From Planctomycetaceae bacterium (lineage in GTDB: Bacteria; Planctomycetota; Planctomycetia; Pirellulales; Pirellulaceae), in the NCBI GenBank assembly GCA_005778405.1, contig SXOA01000103.1, positions 1 through 58,504 of the forward strand: 58,504 bases of DNA, written 5' to 3'. This document shows positions 3,242 through 51,187 of this stretch, piece after piece; positions within the stretch are counted from its first letter, which is position 1; every line of letters starts with the position of its first letter. The notes below the pieces were generated by a model. That model saw only the letters and a program-made list of their open reading frames with translations. It had not been told where the DNA came from and made no database searches. The translations under genes were made by a program, and so were the position numbers.

Positions 3242-4603
3242 ATGCACCGCCGCCAATTCATCGCCGCCACCGCCACTACCGCCGGCCTCTCCCTTTCCGC
3301 TGCCGCCCAGCAGCGCCTCATTGCCGAAGAGGTCGCCGATCAAAAACCCAAGCGGGTCGGACTCATCGGCTGCGGGTGGTATGGCAAGAATGATCTCTTC
3401 CGACTCATCCAAGTGACGCCCACCGAGGTGGTCGCTCTCTGCGACGTGGACTCGAAGCAGCTCGGCAAGGCCGCCGAAATCGTCAAGCAGCGGAAGCCGA
3501 AAGACAAGCCGCAACTTTATGGCGACTATCGAAAGATGCTGGCCGACAACAAGCTCGACATCGTCCTCATCGGCACTCCCGACCACTGGCACGCCCTGAC
3601 CATGATTGCCGCCTGCGAAGCGGGGGCGGACGTCTACTGCCAGAAGCCAATCAGCGTCGACGTGGCCGAGGGACAAGCGATGCTGGCCGCCGCCCGCAAG
3701 CACAAGCGCGTCGTTCAAGTCGGCACGCAGCGCCGCAGCACGCCGCACCTCGTGGAAGCCCGTGAAAAAATCGTGAAGGCCGGCTTGCTCGGTAAAATCG
3801 CCTATGCCGAGGTCTGCTGCTACTACCACATGCGGGCCAACGGCAACCCACCGCTGGAAAAAGTACCGGAGCACCTCGACTACGAGATGTGGACCGGCCC
3901 CGCCCCCCTTCGCCCGTACGATGGCCTGCCGCACAAACGCTGGTGGCGGACCTTCATGGAATATGGCAACGGCATCATGGGGGACATGTGCATTCACATG
4001 CTCGACATGATCCGTTGGCAGCTCGACCTCGGCTGGCCGACCCGCATCAGCTCCGCCGGCGGCATTCTGGTGCAGAAGGAAGGGAAATCGAACACCGCCG
4101 ACACGCAGGCCGCCACGTTCGACTTCGGCGACCTGAAAGTCACCTGGCAGCACCGCACCTGGGGAAACCCCACCGACCCCGCGTTCCCCTGGGCCGGCTT
4201 CATCTACGGCGAAAAAGGAACCCTCAAGCTCGACGTCCACCGCTACGACTTCTTCCCCACCGGCAAAACCGAGCCGACCCTGAGCGGCACAGCCGTCTTC
4301 GACCCGCCGGAAAAATACCCCGAAGACAAAACCGAAGAAGACATGGAGCTCCACGCCGCCACCGCCAACCGCGCCCACCAGCGCGACTTCTTGAAGGCCA
4401 TCGCCAGCCGCGGCAAGCCCATCGCGGACATCGAACAGGGGCACATCTCCACAGCTTCGTGCTTGTTGGCGAACATTTCCATGCAACTCGGCCGGACGCT
4501 CGTCTGGGACCATGAGACGCATCAGGTTGTCGGCGATGTCGAGGCCAATAAGCTGCTGAAGCGGCCGTACCGGAAGCCGTGGGTGAGGCCGGAGGTGGGG
4601 TAA
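3242..4603 (+). CDS. Gfo/Idh/MocA-family oxidoreductase with Tat signal
   Basis: NAD(P)-dependent sugar or inositol dehydrogenase-like protein of 453 residues. The start at 3242 (MHRRQFIAATATTAG) gives a twin-arginine signal, implying export of the folded cofactor-loaded enzyme. The Rossmann motif is VGLIGCGWYGKND, and the typical EKP-like motif appears as YCQKPIS. The C-terminal Gfo/Idh domain follows with a conserved WMEYGNGIMGDMC-like region. Planctomycetes carry many such secreted paralogues and the substrate is unknown. Just upstream lies a C-rich simple tract (about 3196-3232) related to repeats elsewhere in the window. The next gene starts 2 bp after the stop codon. Confidence 0.9.
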   Translation: MHRRQFIAATATTAGLSLSAAAQQRLIAEEVADQKPKRVGLIGCGWYGKNDLFRLIQVTPTEVVALCDVDSKQLGKAAEIVKQRKPKDKPQLYGDYRKMLADNKLDIVLIGTPDHWHALTMIAACEAGADVYCQKPISVDVAEGQAMLAAARKHKRVVQVGTQRRSTPHLVEAREKIVKAGLLGKIAYAEVCCYYHMRANGNPPLEKVPEHLDYEMWTGPAPLRPYDGLPHKRWWRTFMEYGNGIMGDMCIHMLDMIRWQLDLGWPTRISSAGGILVQKEGKSNTADTQAATFDFGDLKVTWQHRTWGNPTDPAFPWAGFIYGEKGTLKLDVHRYDFFPTGKTEPTLSGTAVFDPPEKYPEDKTEEDMELHAATANRAHQRDFLKAIASRGKPIADIEQGHISTASCLLANISMQLGRTLVWDHETHQVVGDVEANKLLKRPYRKPWVRPEVG

Positions 4604-46926: not shown

Positions 46927-48039
46927 TTACGACTGATACCTCTCCAGCTGGGCTTCATCCAGTTCTACCCCGAGTCCCGGTCCACTGGGCACCTTCGCCA
47001 CGGCTGGGCCGAGCGAAAGCGGTTCGGTCAGCAGGTCGGCTTCATGATAGAGCGGGCCGATGAGGTCGGCGGGGCACAGCTCGCTATCGACTTCCGGCAG
47101 GGCAGCGGCAACATGGAGCATGGCTGCCGTTCCGATGCCGAGTTCCAGGTTGCTGCCGATGGCGCACTTGAGTCCGGCGGCCCGCGCGACGTGAGCGATT
47201 TCCACGGTCCCTGCGATGCCGCCGTGCTTGCCGGGATAGATGCTCAGGATGTCGCAGGCCCGCGCGGTGGTCAGTTGCCAGGCGTCGTTGAGCGTGAAGA
47301 CGCTTTCATCCGCCATGATGGGAATCGTCGTATCGCGGCGGACCTCCGCCATCGCGGAAGGATCATCGGGCGGAATCGGCTGCTCGGCGACGGTCACGCC
47401 CAGGTCCGCCAGCTTCCGTAGCGTCTGTTTCGCCGTCGTCACCGTCCAGCCGCAGTTGGAGTCGATCGTAATGGGAAAACTCGGCCCGACCAGTTCGCGC
47501 ACCGCTCGCACTCGGGCAACGTCCTCCTCGGGAATCAAGCCGGTCTTCACCTTGATGCAGGTCACCCCCCATTCCAAAAACTGCTGGGCCAGGCTGCGGA
47601 CGCGGGGAATGTCAAAAGCCCCCACCACCATCTTGATGCGGGCCGAATCCCGCACCTTTCCACCAAGCAGTTGATACACCGGCATCCCAGCCGCCTTGCC
47701 GGCGATGTCCCAAAGGGCCATTTCGATGCCGGCTTTGGTGAACGGGTTGAGCTTGGCGGCCACATCCATCGCCTGCCTCGCTCGGGTGATCTCCAGCGGA
47801 TTCGCGCCCGCCAGGGCCGGCCCCAAAATTGTCTCGATCAGACTGACGCAGCTCTGGCTGGTCTCTCCCGTCCAGCGGACAGCAACGGTCGCCTCTCCCA
47901 GGCCAACCAGCCCCTCATCCGTATGCACCCGGATGATCACGATCTCAGTAACGACATGCTCCCCATGAGCCGTCTTGGTGCTCATCCCCTTCTTCAGCGG
48001 GACGCGGACCGGAATCGTTTCAATACGGGTAATTTTCAT
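46927..48039 (-). CDS. mandelate racemase / muconate lactonizing enzyme family protein (enolase superfamily)
   Basis: A 370-residue (beta/alpha)7-beta-barrel enzyme. Catalytic bases: the KxK pair in CIKVKTGLIP and a Lys in YPGKHGG. Metal ligands: D in ITIDSNCGW, E in VAEQPIPPDD and D in MADESVF. This pattern is that of the MLE subgroup, which includes cycloisomerases, dipeptide epimerases and OSBS. The substrate cannot be read here. ATG 48039 begins MKITRIETIPVRVP. A REP arm lies 13 bp upstream of the start, in the expected 5' leader. Confidence 0.9.
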   Translation of the reverse strand: MKITRIETIPVRVPLKKGMSTKTAHGEHVVTEIVIIRVHTDEGLVGLGEATVAVRWTGETSQSCVSLIETILGPALAGANPLEITRARQAMDVAAKLNPFTKAGIEMALWDIAGKAAGMPVYQLLGGKVRDSARIKMVVGAFDIPRVRSLAQQFLEWGVTCIKVKTGLIPEEDVARVRAVRELVGPSFPITIDSNCGWTVTTAKQTLRKLADLGVTVAEQPIPPDDPSAMAEVRRDTTIPIMADESVFTLNDAWQLTTARACDILSIYPGKHGGIAGTVEIAHVARAAGLKCAIGSNLELGIGTAAMLHVAAALPEVDSELCPADLIGPLYHEADLLTEPLSLGPAVAKVPSGPGLGVELDEAQLERYQS

Positions 48040-48052
48040 GATTCGTAAAATC

Positions 48053-48089
48053 GTAGGGTGCATGAAGCGCAGCGCAATGCACGCGTAAT
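48053..48089. repeat. single REP arm in the 5' leader of the MLE-family gene
   Basis: The sequence starts GTAGGGTGCATGAAGCGCAG and continues CGCAATGCACGCGTAAT. GTGCAT and ATGCAC pair around a 13-base loop. It matches the left arm of the 49562 unit exactly. It sits between the transcript leader and the MLE start on the minus strand. Confidence 0.85.
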
Positions 48090-48099
48090 TTGTTTCTGA

Positions 48100-48204
48100 T
48101 CATCGATTCGAAGATTGTACCGAATACAACCCCGATTTCCTGACCCCGCTGGAGCGAGGAACCACTGGGAGAGCCGAGCACTGCAATAGGTCGGTTTGAT
48201 ACAT
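48100..48204 (-). pseudogene. short IS-like remnant with strong ribosome site
   Basis: An ATG at 48204 follows CAGGAGGTCCCAAAA, almost the same leader as the IS3 orfA remnant at 3086. It opens a 34-codon frame starting MYQTDLLQC. This could be the 5' end of an IS5-type transposase gene (those often start MYxTDLTDAxW), but the rest does not match. Very weak support. Confidence 0.25.
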
Positions 48205-48671
48205 GTTTTGGGACCTCCTGTTTCGCGCCCGGCGACTTGCCGCAACTCGTGGCGATGCATGGCTTTAACGTGGATTATCTTGATTCATTTTGGTCAAAAT
48301 GTCGCTTGTTTTGATTCACAACTGCGTAAGTGTAAGTGCGTAAGTATTGTATTTCGTTGACTTTGCGTCACGGGCCGGCCCTGTATCACTCCCATTGAAT
48401 CACCAACTTATAAGCTCTTTTTCGATTCACTCACCAGCCTGCCGCTCGTTCCAAGTCTTTGCCAATCCAAGGTTTGCGAGCTCCGGCCGGGCTGATTCAC
48501 CGAAAAGCTCCATAAGCGGCGATAAGCCCCCCGCGCCAAGCCTGCTCGCAAATGGAGCCCCGCTGCTTACGAACAACAATCCGCGCGCAGCGAGCCCCAG
48601 AGACTAGATGCGCGAAACGACTCATTTGTTCACTATTTTCAAAAGAATTTTTTTCGCTTGGCGCGGCAACT
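48205..48671. other. AT-richer intergenic stretch without recognised gene
   Basis: About 470 bp between the IS-like remnant and the first REP pair. It contains several ATTCA/TGATTCA elements (for example at 48275-48282, 48314-48318 and 48394-48400) and no convincing coding sequence. Nothing else could be named. Confidence 0.4.
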
Positions 48672-48783
48672 GTAGGGTGCATGGAGCGCAGCGCAATGCA
48701 CGCGTAATACGGACGGCTATAGGAGTGCGCGCTTTAGGCGGAACGAACCACGCGTGCACTGCGCTCGGCTTCATGCACCCTAC
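48672..48783. repeat. inverted REP pair (BIME-like unit)
   Basis: The left arm starts with GTAG at 48672 (GTAGGGTGCATGGAGCGCAG) and the right arm ends with CTAC at 48783 (CTTCATGCACCCTAC). The two arms are near-perfect inverted repeats of about 35 bases and flank a 40-base spacer resembling that of the 49562 unit (ACGGxCxGC(C)ATAGGAGTGC). The right arm has CTCGG in place of the CGCTGC-type loop. Confidence 0.9.
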
Positions 48784-48970
48784 TCCGGCCCTTCAAGAAA
48801 AGTCGGCCGCCAGTCCTCTGGCGAGCCCCGAGAGTTCGGTTTCCATGCGAGAAGACATGGAGCGGTGAAAGAACGTCGCATCGGACGCTCGGGACAAGGC
48901 ATTTTGGCGCGATGATTTTTGGCCTGGAATGTTGATTGGCCTGTCACCTCCACTCTGCTGGAGTATTGAT

Positions 48971-48999
48971 TTGACCCGTCCATTGGTGCTCGGTATGAT
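48971..48999 (+). promoter_or_regulatory. sigma-70-type promoter of the 49035 gene
   Basis: TTGACC (48971-48976) and TATGAT (48994-48999) are 17 bases apart and each matches 5 of 6 consensus positions. The expected transcript would begin near 49006, leaving about 29 bases of leader before the ATG at 49035. It is the best promoter in the window. Confidence 0.7.
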
Positions 49000-49034
49000 A
49001 CGAACGGTTTTTTGGAATAGACATAATTTGGAAC

Positions 49035-49382
49035 ATGGACCCACAGTTCAAAAACCCGTCGACGCTTGGTCACTACACGCGCCATTTGAATCAATGGCAC
49101 GAAGGGGGATGGCTATTCATTCGAGATGATTCGAAGGTTGCTCTTGATACCCACTGCGTCCAGCAGGCTTGGGACGCTAAAGACCTCAGTCCCGAAGAGC
49201 AGGAGGAATTTGATCGGCGCATCCCTGAGTTGGGATACCGCCACTTTCTGGAATGGGGGCAACTATCCGATATCGTTGGCAACCACGAAGATCAGAAGCC
49301 CGATTTCACCGATTCAGATTTGGAGAAAGCGATCCTCTTTTACTGGCAGCGAGATGCGTTCATTGATCTCGCCGTTGGCTGA
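49035..49382 (+). CDS. hypothetical acidic small protein
   Basis: A 115-residue soluble protein starting MDPQFKNPSTLGHYTRHLNQ, with many acidic residues (DAKDLSPEEQEEFDRRIPEL) and aromatic clusters, ending LFYWQRDAFIDLAVG. Composition is AT-richer than its neighbours. A strong promoter at 48971-48999 supports expression. I do not recognise a named family with certainty. The pattern WLFI...DTHC...DIVGN...LFYWQRDAFI suggests a small conserved domain. It is flanked by REP elements. Confidence 0.65.
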   Translation: MDPQFKNPSTLGHYTRHLNQWHEGGWLFIRDDSKVALDTHCVQQAWDAKDLSPEEQEEFDRRIPELGYRHFLEWGQLSDIVGNHEDQKPDFTDSDLEKAILFYWQRDAFIDLAVG

Positions 49383-49411
49383 TAACCAAGCCATATAGTG
49401 CCGCCCATAGT

Positions 49412-49556
49412 TCACGCATACTCCGGCAGCGCCCGTTTCCAATTCTCGTAAATGATATTGTGGATCATCTCGTCGGGGACTTTCGGAAAGTTGGTCCCGG
49501 CGACGATGTTGTTCACTTTCCACTGGCCGGCGATGACTTGCTGCGGCGTGGCGGAG
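49412..49556 (-). pseudogene. detached 3' end of an amidohydrolase gene (duplicate of the 50288 gene)
   Basis: The last 45 codons (ATPQQVIAGQWKVNNIVAGT onwards to LPEYA and a TGA stop) match the 3' end of the amidohydrolase gene at 50288. 134 aligned bases (49422-49555 versus 50301-50434) show 9 differences, no gaps, and all 9 are synonymous third-codon changes. The protein sequence is identical over that stretch. Upstream it breaks off at 49556, and the REP unit begins at 49562. No ribosome site or start is present, so it is not expressed as a gene by itself. Confidence 0.85.
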
Positions 49557-49561
49557 TAGGT

Positions 49562-49674
49562 GTAGGGTGCATGAAGCGCAGCGCAATGCACGCGTAATAC
49601 GGCCAGCCATAGGAGTGCTTCGCTCGGGGCAGAACGAACCACGCGTGCATGGCGCTGCGCTTCATGCACCCTAC
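49562..49674. repeat. inverted REP pair (BIME-like unit) next to RAYT
   Basis: The left arm begins GTAG at 49562 (GTAGGGTGCATGAAGCGCAG) and the right arm ends CTAC at 49674 (GCTTCATGCACCCTAC). Arms of about 35 bases are inverted copies with a spacer of about 40 bases. The unit ends 9 bp before the transposase gene's stop side and begins 6 bp after the truncated amidohydrolase copy. Confidence 0.9.
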
Positions 49675-49683
49675 TCCGTCACG

Positions 49684-50232
49684 TTACTCCAGGTCTAATC
49701 CCGCGATGGATGCCGGTTCCGACCGACCCCAATCGATCTCATATTCGCCCGCTGCCACGAATCGCAAAAAGGTGCTCTGCGGCCAGTCTCGCGGGCGCAG
49801 CACATAGCCGTGCTTCACGGGGTTGTAGTGGATGTAGTCGCAGACTTGTATCAGATATTCCTGGTCGTCAATCGTGTTTTCTCGAAAGCGTTTTTGCCAG
49901 ATTCCCCGGTTTCCTCTCCGCTCCTGCGCCAGGGTGACTCGCTCTTCGTGGCCGCCACTGGCCAGCCAACGATCGGTAAAGCGGGCCTTGATCCGCTTCC
50001 AGCGAGTGGAGTAATCGCTGTCGCCGGCGGGGAGAGTCCAGACCGCGTGAAGATGGTCCGGCAGCAAAACTGTCGCGACGACCTGGAATGGGGACTCCGT
50101 TTGTACTTCACGCATGACCTCGCCGAGCAACTGTCGTGCTGCATCTGACTGGAAGTAGGGATACCGATGATACGTGACCACCGTAATGAAATAAGTCCCT
50201 CCGGGAACGTACCAGCGGCGATAGTGGGACAT
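49684..50232 (-). CDS. REP-associated tyrosine transposase (RAYT, IS200-like Y1 family)
   Basis: A 182-residue single-domain Y1 transposase. The HUH motif is in LPDHLHAVWTLP (H60 and H62), the nucleophilic tyrosine is probably Y136 in YIHYNPVKHG, and the RAYT signature IWQKRFRENTIDD precedes it. RAYTs cut and join single-stranded REP DNA beginning with GTAG. The ATG at 50232 (MSHYRRWYVPGG) was chosen; a longer frame runs upstream into the REP. It has a REP arm 26 bp upstream and a REP pair 10 bp downstream, the standard layout. Confidence 0.93.
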   Translation of the reverse strand: MSHYRRWYVPGGTYFITVVTYHRYPYFQSDAARQLLGEVMREVQTESPFQVVATVLLPDHLHAVWTLPAGDSDYSTRWKRIKARFTDRWLASGGHEERVTLAQERRGNRGIWQKRFRENTIDDQEYLIQVCDYIHYNPVKHGYVLRPRDWPQSTFLRFVAAGEYEIDWGRSEPASIAGLDLE

Positions 50233-50257
50233 GGGTTTCCCCTCGGCGGTATCTATC

Positions 50258-50291
50258 ACGCGTGCATTTCGCTGCGCTTCATGCACCCTAC
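50258..50291. repeat. single REP arm at the 3' end of the amidohydrolase gene
   Basis: ACGCGTGCATTTCGCTGCGC followed by TTCATGCACCCTAC ends in CTAC at 50291; on the minus strand this reads GTAGGGTGCATGAAGC. The TAG of GTAG (plus-strand CTA at 50288-50290) is the stop codon of the amidohydrolase gene. Confidence 0.9.
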
Positions 50292-51187
50292 GGGAGATAT
50301 TCCGGCAGCGCCCGTTTCCAGTTTTCGTAGATGATGTTGTGGATCATCTCATCGGGGACTTTGGGGAAATTGGTGCCGGCGACGATGTTGTTCACTTTCC
50401 ACTGGCCGGCGATGACTTGCTGCGGCGTGGCGGAGGGGAAGTCGGAGCCGAAGAGGAGCTTGTGCTCGACGCCGTATTCGATGGCGGTCATGAAGGCTTG
50501 CCAGTGCCGCCAGGGGCGGTAGTGGAGGGCGGAAATGTTGGCGTAGAGATTGGGGTGCTTGCGGATCAGGACGATGCATTCGGTTTCCCACGGATGCCCC
50601 ATGTGGGCGATGATGATCCGGAGGTCGGGGCAGGCGATGGCGATGTCTTCCAGAAGGATGGGATTGGCGTGTTTCAGCGGCCCCGGGCGGACGAAGCTGG
50701 TCCCCTGATGGATGTTGACCGGAATGCCGAGCTGCTCCGCCTTCTTAAACAGGCCGATGTGCCGCGGATCCTGCGGATCCCAGTTCTGGTAGATGGGAGA
50801 AACCTTCAGCCCACGAAAGCCGAGGTCGTTGACGTAGTACGCGAGTTTCCGCACGCAGTCGGGGTCGCCCGGATCGACCGAGCACCAGCCGACGAAACGC
50901 CCTCCTTGTTCCTTCACGAACTTTGCAATCAATTCTTGATCGGCCCGGATGCCGCAGAACGGAGCCTGAATCCCAAAGACGATGACCTTGTCACAGTCCT
51001 TCGTCGCGGCCAGGAGCGCATCGGGGCGGGAATCGAAGGCGTTGTTTTGGCTCGCAGTTGCTCCGGCGAAGTAGACGTCGGGCGAAAGCTTCATCTTGGC
51101 CTTCTTGGCCTCCCAGGCGTATTGCACGAATTCATCCGAGAGGTGCTCGGGATACCACATCAGGTTGGTGTGTGTGTCGAAAAGCAT
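50288..51187 (-). CDS. amidohydrolase 2-family TIM-barrel protein, 3' end replaced by REP
   Basis: A 299-residue metal-dependent hydrolase or decarboxylase of the ACMSD-like amidohydrolase family. It starts MLFDTHTNLMWYPEHLSDEF; the expected HxH metal motif is HTN. Other ligand positions are kept: VNIHQGTS, IIIAHMGHPW and LLFGSDFPSA. The last residues are LPEYLP, then the stop TAG lies in the REP; the related fragment at 49412 ends LPEYA and TGA. It is divergent from the MFS gene with only 47 bp between starts. Confidence 0.85.
   Translation of the reverse strand: MLFDTHTNLMWYPEHLSDEFVQYAWEAKKAKMKLSPDVYFAGATASQNNAFDSRPDALLAATKDCDKVIVFGIQAPFCGIRADQELIAKFVKEQGGRFVGWCSVDPGDPDCVRKLAYYVNDLGFRGLKVSPIYQNWDPQDPRHIGLFKKAEQLGIPVNIHQGTSFVRPGPLKHANPILLEDIAIACPDLRIIIAHMGHPWETECIVLIRKHPNLYANISALHYRPWRHWQAFMTAIEYGVEHKLLFGSDFPSATPQQVIAGQWKVNNIVAGTNFPKVPDEMIHNIIYENWKRALPEYLP

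Follow-up and report, generated by a model that had tools for sequence, protein, structure and literature searches.

We examined a 58,504-nucleotide stretch of DNA (hereafter 'the window') from Planctomycetaceae bacterium (assembly GCA_005778405.1, contig SXOA01000103.1, positions 1 to 58,504, forward strand), in which the final 46 homologous codons of an amidohydrolase gene are present twice, with a gene for a REP-associated tyrosine transposase (RAYT; REP, repetitive extragenic palindrome) lying in between. We tentatively interpret the detached gene end, with nearly balanced confidence, as a long target duplication produced by insertion of a 730-bp unit (the RAYT gene together with its flanking REPs), followed by exchange of the last 27 codons of one copy for the allele of a related strain. 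In the window itself we observed the geometry of the two copies around the unit, a stop codon of the detached copy that lies outside the unit, a stop codon of the gene-borne copy that lies inside it, and ten synonymous differences between the copies. We read this arrangement, by analogy, as the same type of event as a duplication in a second genome, G787 (genomes, contigs, loci and proteins are numbered here with the prefixes G, C, L and P).

The amidohydrolase gene end on both sides of a RAYT unit

Compared in frame, the copy within the intact gene (copy B) and the detached copy (copy A) match over 138 bp, and their translations are identical at 46/46 residues. The original prediction had recognized this repeat around the RAYT gene and had described its differences as exclusively third-position and synonymous, with identical protein ends. 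That description holds for 10/10 differences, but the extent and count given there (134 bp, 9 differences) fall short, because an additional GAG/GAA third-position change lies at the gene end. Synonymous divergence amounts to 0.45 per site, with 0 amino-acid changes. With both copies neutral, ten synonymous changes out of ten would have a probability of 2e-7 to 4e-6; with one neutral copy, the figure is about 3e-5 to 3e-4 (transition bias 1–8 in each case). This makes neutral decay of one copy unlikely and supports the earlier proposal that A and B diverged as coding DNA. The changes are also unevenly spread, with codons 1–19 identical and all ten differences within the last 27 codons (P = 0.001 for an identical run at that end; 0.028 for such a run anywhere), and the pair therefore looks mosaic.

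The RAYT assignment is secure by profile score (177.8 bits against the NCBIfam model REP_Tyr_transpos, cut-off 80; 33.2 against Pfam Y1_Tnp, cut-off 23). Inverted, GTAG-footed REPs lie on both sides of the gene, in the form of a single REP upstream and a pair of inverted REPs (a REPIN) at the far end, and the outer feet of this REP and REPIN, at 50291 and 49562, bound the 730-bp unit. Copy B lies 5 nt, and copy A 6 nt, outside those feet (Table 1). This RAYT is the one close copy in its genome (two others are 24–26% identical), and the RAYT interval has 71 matches there, mostly to REP stretches, across many contigs.

Table 1. Positions of the repeat copies, the RAYT unit and neighboring features in the window
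Feature	Position	Strand	Basis
Copy B, last 46 homologous codons within the intact amidohydrolase gene	50297..50434	-	sequence and in-frame comparison
Copy A, detached 46-codon 3' end	49418..49555	-	sequence and in-frame comparison
Last codon and stop after copy A (GCG TGA), outside any REP	49412..49417	-	
Amidohydrolase gene (PF04909), 299 aa; final codons CTC CCG TAG enter the REP foot	50288..51187	-	
5-nt spacer between copy B and REP (CTCCC in gene sense)	50292..50296	-	
REP upstream of RAYT, GTAGGG foot at 50291; provides the amidohydrolase TAG stop	50254..50291	-	
RAYT gene, REP-associated tyrosine transposase, 182 aa (Y1_Tnp PF01797; NF047646)	49684..50232	-	
REPIN2, pair of inverted REPs at the unit's far end; its foot (CCCTAC in gene sense) lies at 49562	49562..49674	.	
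6-nt spacer between REPIN2 and copy A (ACCTAC in gene sense)	49556..49561	-	
DUF7716 gene, convergent with copy A; taken to be the native neighbor on the downstream side	49035..49382	+	
REPIN1, inside a dispersed repeat; contig C10 copy lacks REPIN1; no long duplication	48672..48783	.	
Single REP at the start of the MR_MLE gene; MR_MLE directly follows the amidohydrolase in some relatives	48053..48089	.	

The two copies end differently. Copy A ends PEYA followed by its own TGA, and copy B ends PEYLP followed by a TAG that falls within the GTAG foot of the REP. A protein ending with copy A would be 298 aa in length, which is the length of 43 of the 81 orthologs that have a normal stop (among 83 orthologous loci). 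The residue that follows the motif LPE[YH] in those 81 is most commonly A (24 loci), with V in 17 and no motif in 24, and the closest protein found (P0001, 97% identical) ends RALPEYAG. The ortholog lengths, the prevalence of the A ending and the end of P0001 favor copy A as the original gene end.

An 85-aa open frame (49412–49669) extends out of REPIN2 across copy A, in phase with the amidohydrolase gene. We set this fused frame aside; it matches no Pfam family, and its openness is its one support.

A second duplication with an unoccupied sister site

The best case for insertion comes from G787, where a 63-bp repeat at locus L267 ends at the stop codon of an alpha/beta-hydrolase gene and is separated from the RAYT unit by spacers of 6 and 12 nt. 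The same genome carries a second unit at a different site (L247). The two units are 97.1% identical over 694 nt; the match sets in 1 nt ahead of the GTAGGG foot and ends 14 nt beyond the CCCTAC foot. The left flank and unit of L247 are common to the sister genome G749 at 92.6%, and its right flank is not. Since G749 and G787 differ for several kb beyond the hydrolase gene, G749 was usable just as the carrier of the second RAYT site. A unit of G787 seems to have reached a new site by copying.

In another sister genome, G852, an intact hydrolase gene end on contig C279 is directly continuous with the stretch found beyond the detached copy in G787 (90% identity over 1382 bp, repeat included), and no close RAYT was found in G852 (best matches 26–47%). 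An empty site is thus seen in a relative for L267, subject to a caveat about the edge of C279 that is taken up below, and in none for the window. Both G787 copies share two states that are missing from G749 and from both G852 copies of this gene end, and their three mutual differences are private to the detached copy and protein-changing. Because of the two shared private states and the confinement of the three differences to the detached copy, the duplication would have arisen in the G787 lineage, and most likely the unit and the duplication arrived there.

The two versions of the hydrolase gene end in G852 (contig C107, locus L295, and contig C279, locus L296) differ at 8/174 nt, 7 of them synonymous third-position changes, and their downstream sequences differ. 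The version on C107 probably belongs to a second strain, which suggests that strain mixtures occur in bins of this kind. These observations bear on the window as well, where a metagenome assembler could have joined the haplotypes of two strains. Such an artefact would be helped by the state of the genome (203 contigs, 91.65% complete), by the precedent of two largely synonymous gene-end versions in the G852 bin, and by the length of the identical block in the window, which is sufficient to mislead a short-k assembly. It could account for an exchange of the final 27 codons; it hardly accounts for the way REPIN2 is joined to copy A, where no long word is shared between REPIN and gene end; the same sandwich is moreover found in one- or two-contig genomes (L226 in G176; L267 in G787). 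We consider an assembly artefact quite unlikely.

Detached gene ends beside other RAYT genes

We compared the left and right flanks of RAYT relatives and sought detached gene tails by translation. The set comprised 59 loci (window included) and 45 from a second list, for a total of 104, most partial and distant matches having been left out. One comparison covered 102 of the 104, two being lost at contig edges, and the test for qualifying repeats covered the 98 with 500 bp of sequence on each side. Of 120 control loci provided, some of which represent one place under two ids, 106 were tested for repeats and 94 for gene tails. Most direct repeats flanking RAYT relatives look like REPINs. A qualifying non-REP repeat was found at 6/98 RAYT loci (L245 included) and 1/106 controls (P = 0.057), or at 7/98 (P = 0.030) if the tandem duplication at L273 is added. 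A detached 3' end of a neighboring gene was found at 5/104 RAYT loci (the window, L217, L226, L239 and L267) as compared with 1/94 controls (L056; P = 0.22), a count that follows removal by eye of REP translations and weak matches, some of which were checked. The L056 repeat (in CAMAWN010000035.1) occupies locus positions 2141–2282 and 4269–4410, flanking an amidohydrolase ortholog.

Several candidates were set aside in this process. The repeats at L262, L201 and L249 proved to be REPINs read as protein, and those at L135, L145 and L147 look like REPIN arrays. No qualifying repeat was present at L212, L266 and L282 (viewed) or at L240, L250, L270 and L274 (listed), and tail matches such as those at L128, L132, L140, L149, L151, L209 and L252 were judged by eye to be REP translations or weak. 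Locus L273 (G808:C1:208421-212740) contains two tandem RAYT genes and a 162-bp repeat that is 98.8% identical; as a tandem RAYT duplication, it was not retained as a duplicated gene end. At L245, a 45-bp repeat with 100% identity directly flanks the RAYT unit and is not clearly a gene end.

The geometry is stronger evidence than these counts, in that three loci (the window, L226 and L267) each have the repeat 5–12 nt beyond the REP feet at both ends of the unit. At L226 (G176), a 73-bp repeat that includes the stop codon is separated from these feet by 5 and 6 nt. The gene concerned belongs to no Pfam family and is present in 7/8 genus mates, where it is 46–63% identical and has neither a second tail nor a RAYT within about 1.5 kb; its permease neighbor is absent beside the gene in those seven genomes, so the site is not comparable. 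At L217 (G033:C81:24438-27938), a 63-bp detached gene end lies beside the RAYT unit and a methyltransferase gene is situated between the unit and the full gene, an arrangement that could represent an insertion with cargo. At L239 (G757), the detached gene end lies beyond the RAYT gene and further REPs. Its 4 differences in 51 bp comprise 3 synonymous third-position changes and a fourth at the repeat edge, making it possibly a second case of synonymous-only divergence.

The recurrence of this sandwich bears on the suggestion, made in the original prediction, that a tandem paralog had been deleted by REP recombination. In that scenario two adjacent amidohydrolase genes would have existed, the second later trimmed to its 3' end by a deletion from REPIN2. 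It fits the constraint on both copies, and two genomes of the family (G335 and G251) do have two amidohydrolase copies, but on different contigs. In the 83 relative loci, further amidohydrolase matches close to the gene are just 33–37% identical. A similar REP-RAYT-REPIN architecture around other genes would require a paralog and a deletion every time, and the 19-codon identical block would be unexpected. Because the sandwich of gene end and REP-RAYT-REP recurs elsewhere, once with a unit-less site in a sister, a tandem paralog is unneeded, and we regard it as very unlikely. The association of a RAYT with gene-end duplication, which had been thought less usual, is instead the better supported option.

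A single act of introgression was also considered, in which copy B and the unit would have entered together from a related strain, recombining by homology on one side and joining illegitimately on the other, with the resident end (copy A) left stranded. Homology-facilitated illegitimate recombination of this sort has been described in bacteria (PMC3240628, in the text available), the ten synonymous changes would be explained in one step, and the pattern at L239 is similar. An illegitimate joint would be expected anywhere in the donor flank, however, whereas the far copy in the window, L226 and L267 is 6–12 nt away from the outer REP foot; moreover the first 19 codons are identical, and both G787 copies are of one lineage. 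On balance we find introgression rather unlikely.

REPs were present at 23/23 sites fetched from the window genome (chosen from the list of interval matches). Nineteen have no flanking repeat, three (L195, L197 and L198) have repeats of 14–21 nt, and L193 has repeats of 298 and 323 bp that lie in its flanks, away from the REP, and are possibly tandem paralogs. Long duplication was therefore rejected as a general property of REPINs, having been unseen at these sites. REPIN1 seems to have inserted into a dispersed repeat without a long duplication, because the counterpart on contig C10 runs through without it. That dispersed repeat (48233–48666 and 48791–48893) is 71% and then 93% identical to its counterpart on C10, with no REPIN1 between the two parts. 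The MR_MLE (enolase superfamily) gene of the window (46927–48063) is parted from the amidohydrolase gene by a REP-rich 2.2 kb that holds REPs, the RAYT gene, copy A and the DUF7716 gene; in 15/83 relative loci (two of which are one contig), the amidohydrolase gene is followed within about 200 bp by an MR_MLE gene of the same orientation. We rejected the idea that 48053–50291 is one composite element bounded by inverted REPs, since it contains separate pieces (REPIN1 in its dispersed repeat); the clean unit within it is the RAYT part.

A possible insertion mechanism and its implications

In the sequence of events that we propose, the unit would have inserted at the amidohydrolase 3' end and doubled 138 bp of target. 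Copy B would have stayed on the gene side with its frame kept, now ending at the TAG of the REP foot, and copy A, the end with its own TGA, would have been displaced to the far side of the unit. The RAYT itself may have made two offset cuts that were then filled in, which would be enough to give a duplication. A second step is needed for the synonymous changes, because a fresh duplication would be identical and a stranded copy would decay unconstrained; we suggest that one copy later acquired its last 27 codons from the allele of a related strain, either through recombination in the cell or through haplotype switching in metagenome assembly. The 19-codon identical block followed by diverged codons fits such an exchange, and recombination with a related strain, as raised in the original prediction, remains the best account of the synonymous changes.

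Several observations weigh against this interpretation. Contig C279, on which the empty site depends, has just 176 bp of sequence up to and including the stop codon, and a second version of the hydrolase gene end is present in G852 on C107. No relative found was near enough to provide an empty site for the window, the nearest orthologs with DNA having 84% protein identity. That copy A is the original end is made uncertain by the nearest DNA relative (L044) and by P0003, P0004 and P0006, all of which end PEYL, so that the terminal leucine of copy B could be native. The excess of RAYT loci over controls is weak for both repeats and tails, and the repeat at control L056 (142 bp, 87% identity, with a 45-aa tail match of 91%) is unexplained. 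L217 and L239 have extra sequence between their copies, and the L217 gene has no Pfam family. A long repeat was found at the REP in 0/23 REP sites of the window genome. Finally, the related IS200/IS605 elements leave no larger target duplications, according to the available text of PMC2817692.

That last property separates the window unit from IS200/IS605 elements, which share with it a related Y1 transposase (PF01797) and stem-loop ends. The repeats described here measure 63–138 bp (138 bp in the window and 63 bp in the comparison of G787 with G852), and the departure from that rule rests on G787. The window unit also resembles published REPtrons (PMC2817692, PMC6006769 and PMC8266576, as far as their available text goes) in having a Y1 transposase gene, GTAG-footed flanking REPs and dispersed cognate REPINs; the provision of a stop codon by a GTAG REP to a neighboring open reading frame is likewise known (PMC3733652, available text). 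The accessible portions of these sources differ from our observations on mobility. RAYTs are described without IS-like mobility in PMC2817692, and as domesticated transposases with no evidence of tnpAREP mobility in PMC8266576, whereas the window unit is flanked by a duplicated gene end and the G787 unit was apparently copied to a new site. RAYTs at novel sites, reached through duplication or transfer, are mentioned in PMC3686654, and the single-strand cuts that RAYT enzymes make in vitro fall at CT or CA next to REPs (PMC8266576), again in the text available. Repeated host DNA beside REPINs is also found in the tandem REPIN clusters of P. fluorescens SBW25 (PMC3116915, available text), but there the REPIN itself is tandemly repeated together with flanking DNA, whereas the window has a single unit between two gene-end copies. 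We found no report of RAYT-linked target duplications in the literature searched, a body whose scope left most subscription papers outside and of which parts were available. The gene-end arrangement itself has a parallel among phages.

Phage 21 integrates at the 3' end of icd, as does prophage e14. In the case of e14 the gene remains intact with a replacement 3' end that differs mostly by synonymous changes, and its former end is displaced (PMC4759930, available text), much as in the window. If the amidohydrolase gene end were similarly an attachment site, the incoming element would have brought a replacement 3' end with it and integrated by a single crossover, and a crossover inside the identical block would yield the observed mosaic. 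The interval carries a RAYT unit, however, and no integrase was recognized by Pfam among frames of 80 aa or longer in the 48.1–50.3 kb interval, where the RAYT and DUF7716 were recognized and nine other frames had no family. In G787, furthermore, the duplication behaves like a copy made within the lineage, and its detached piece carries non-synonymous changes. We consider an attachment site highly improbable.

Beyond the window, we entertain, with rather more doubt than confidence, the possibility that the REP-RAYT-REP units of Planctomycetota are not immobile, but are copied whole with the GTAG feet as their ends and with 45–138 bp of target duplicated. Because such a duplication leaves the gene intact and strands only its old end, the units would survive preferentially at gene 3' ends, and movement of the whole unit would account for gene ends stranded next to RAYT genes. 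The movement of whole REPtrons would become testable with units whose ends are defined, whose duplication can be measured and whose site is unoccupied in a sister genome, and mobile REPtrons would bear on how REPs spread. If the interpretation is correct, the duplications point to staggered double cutting where single-strand transposition has been assumed, an insertion chemistry that would be undescribed for the IS200/IS605 superfamily.
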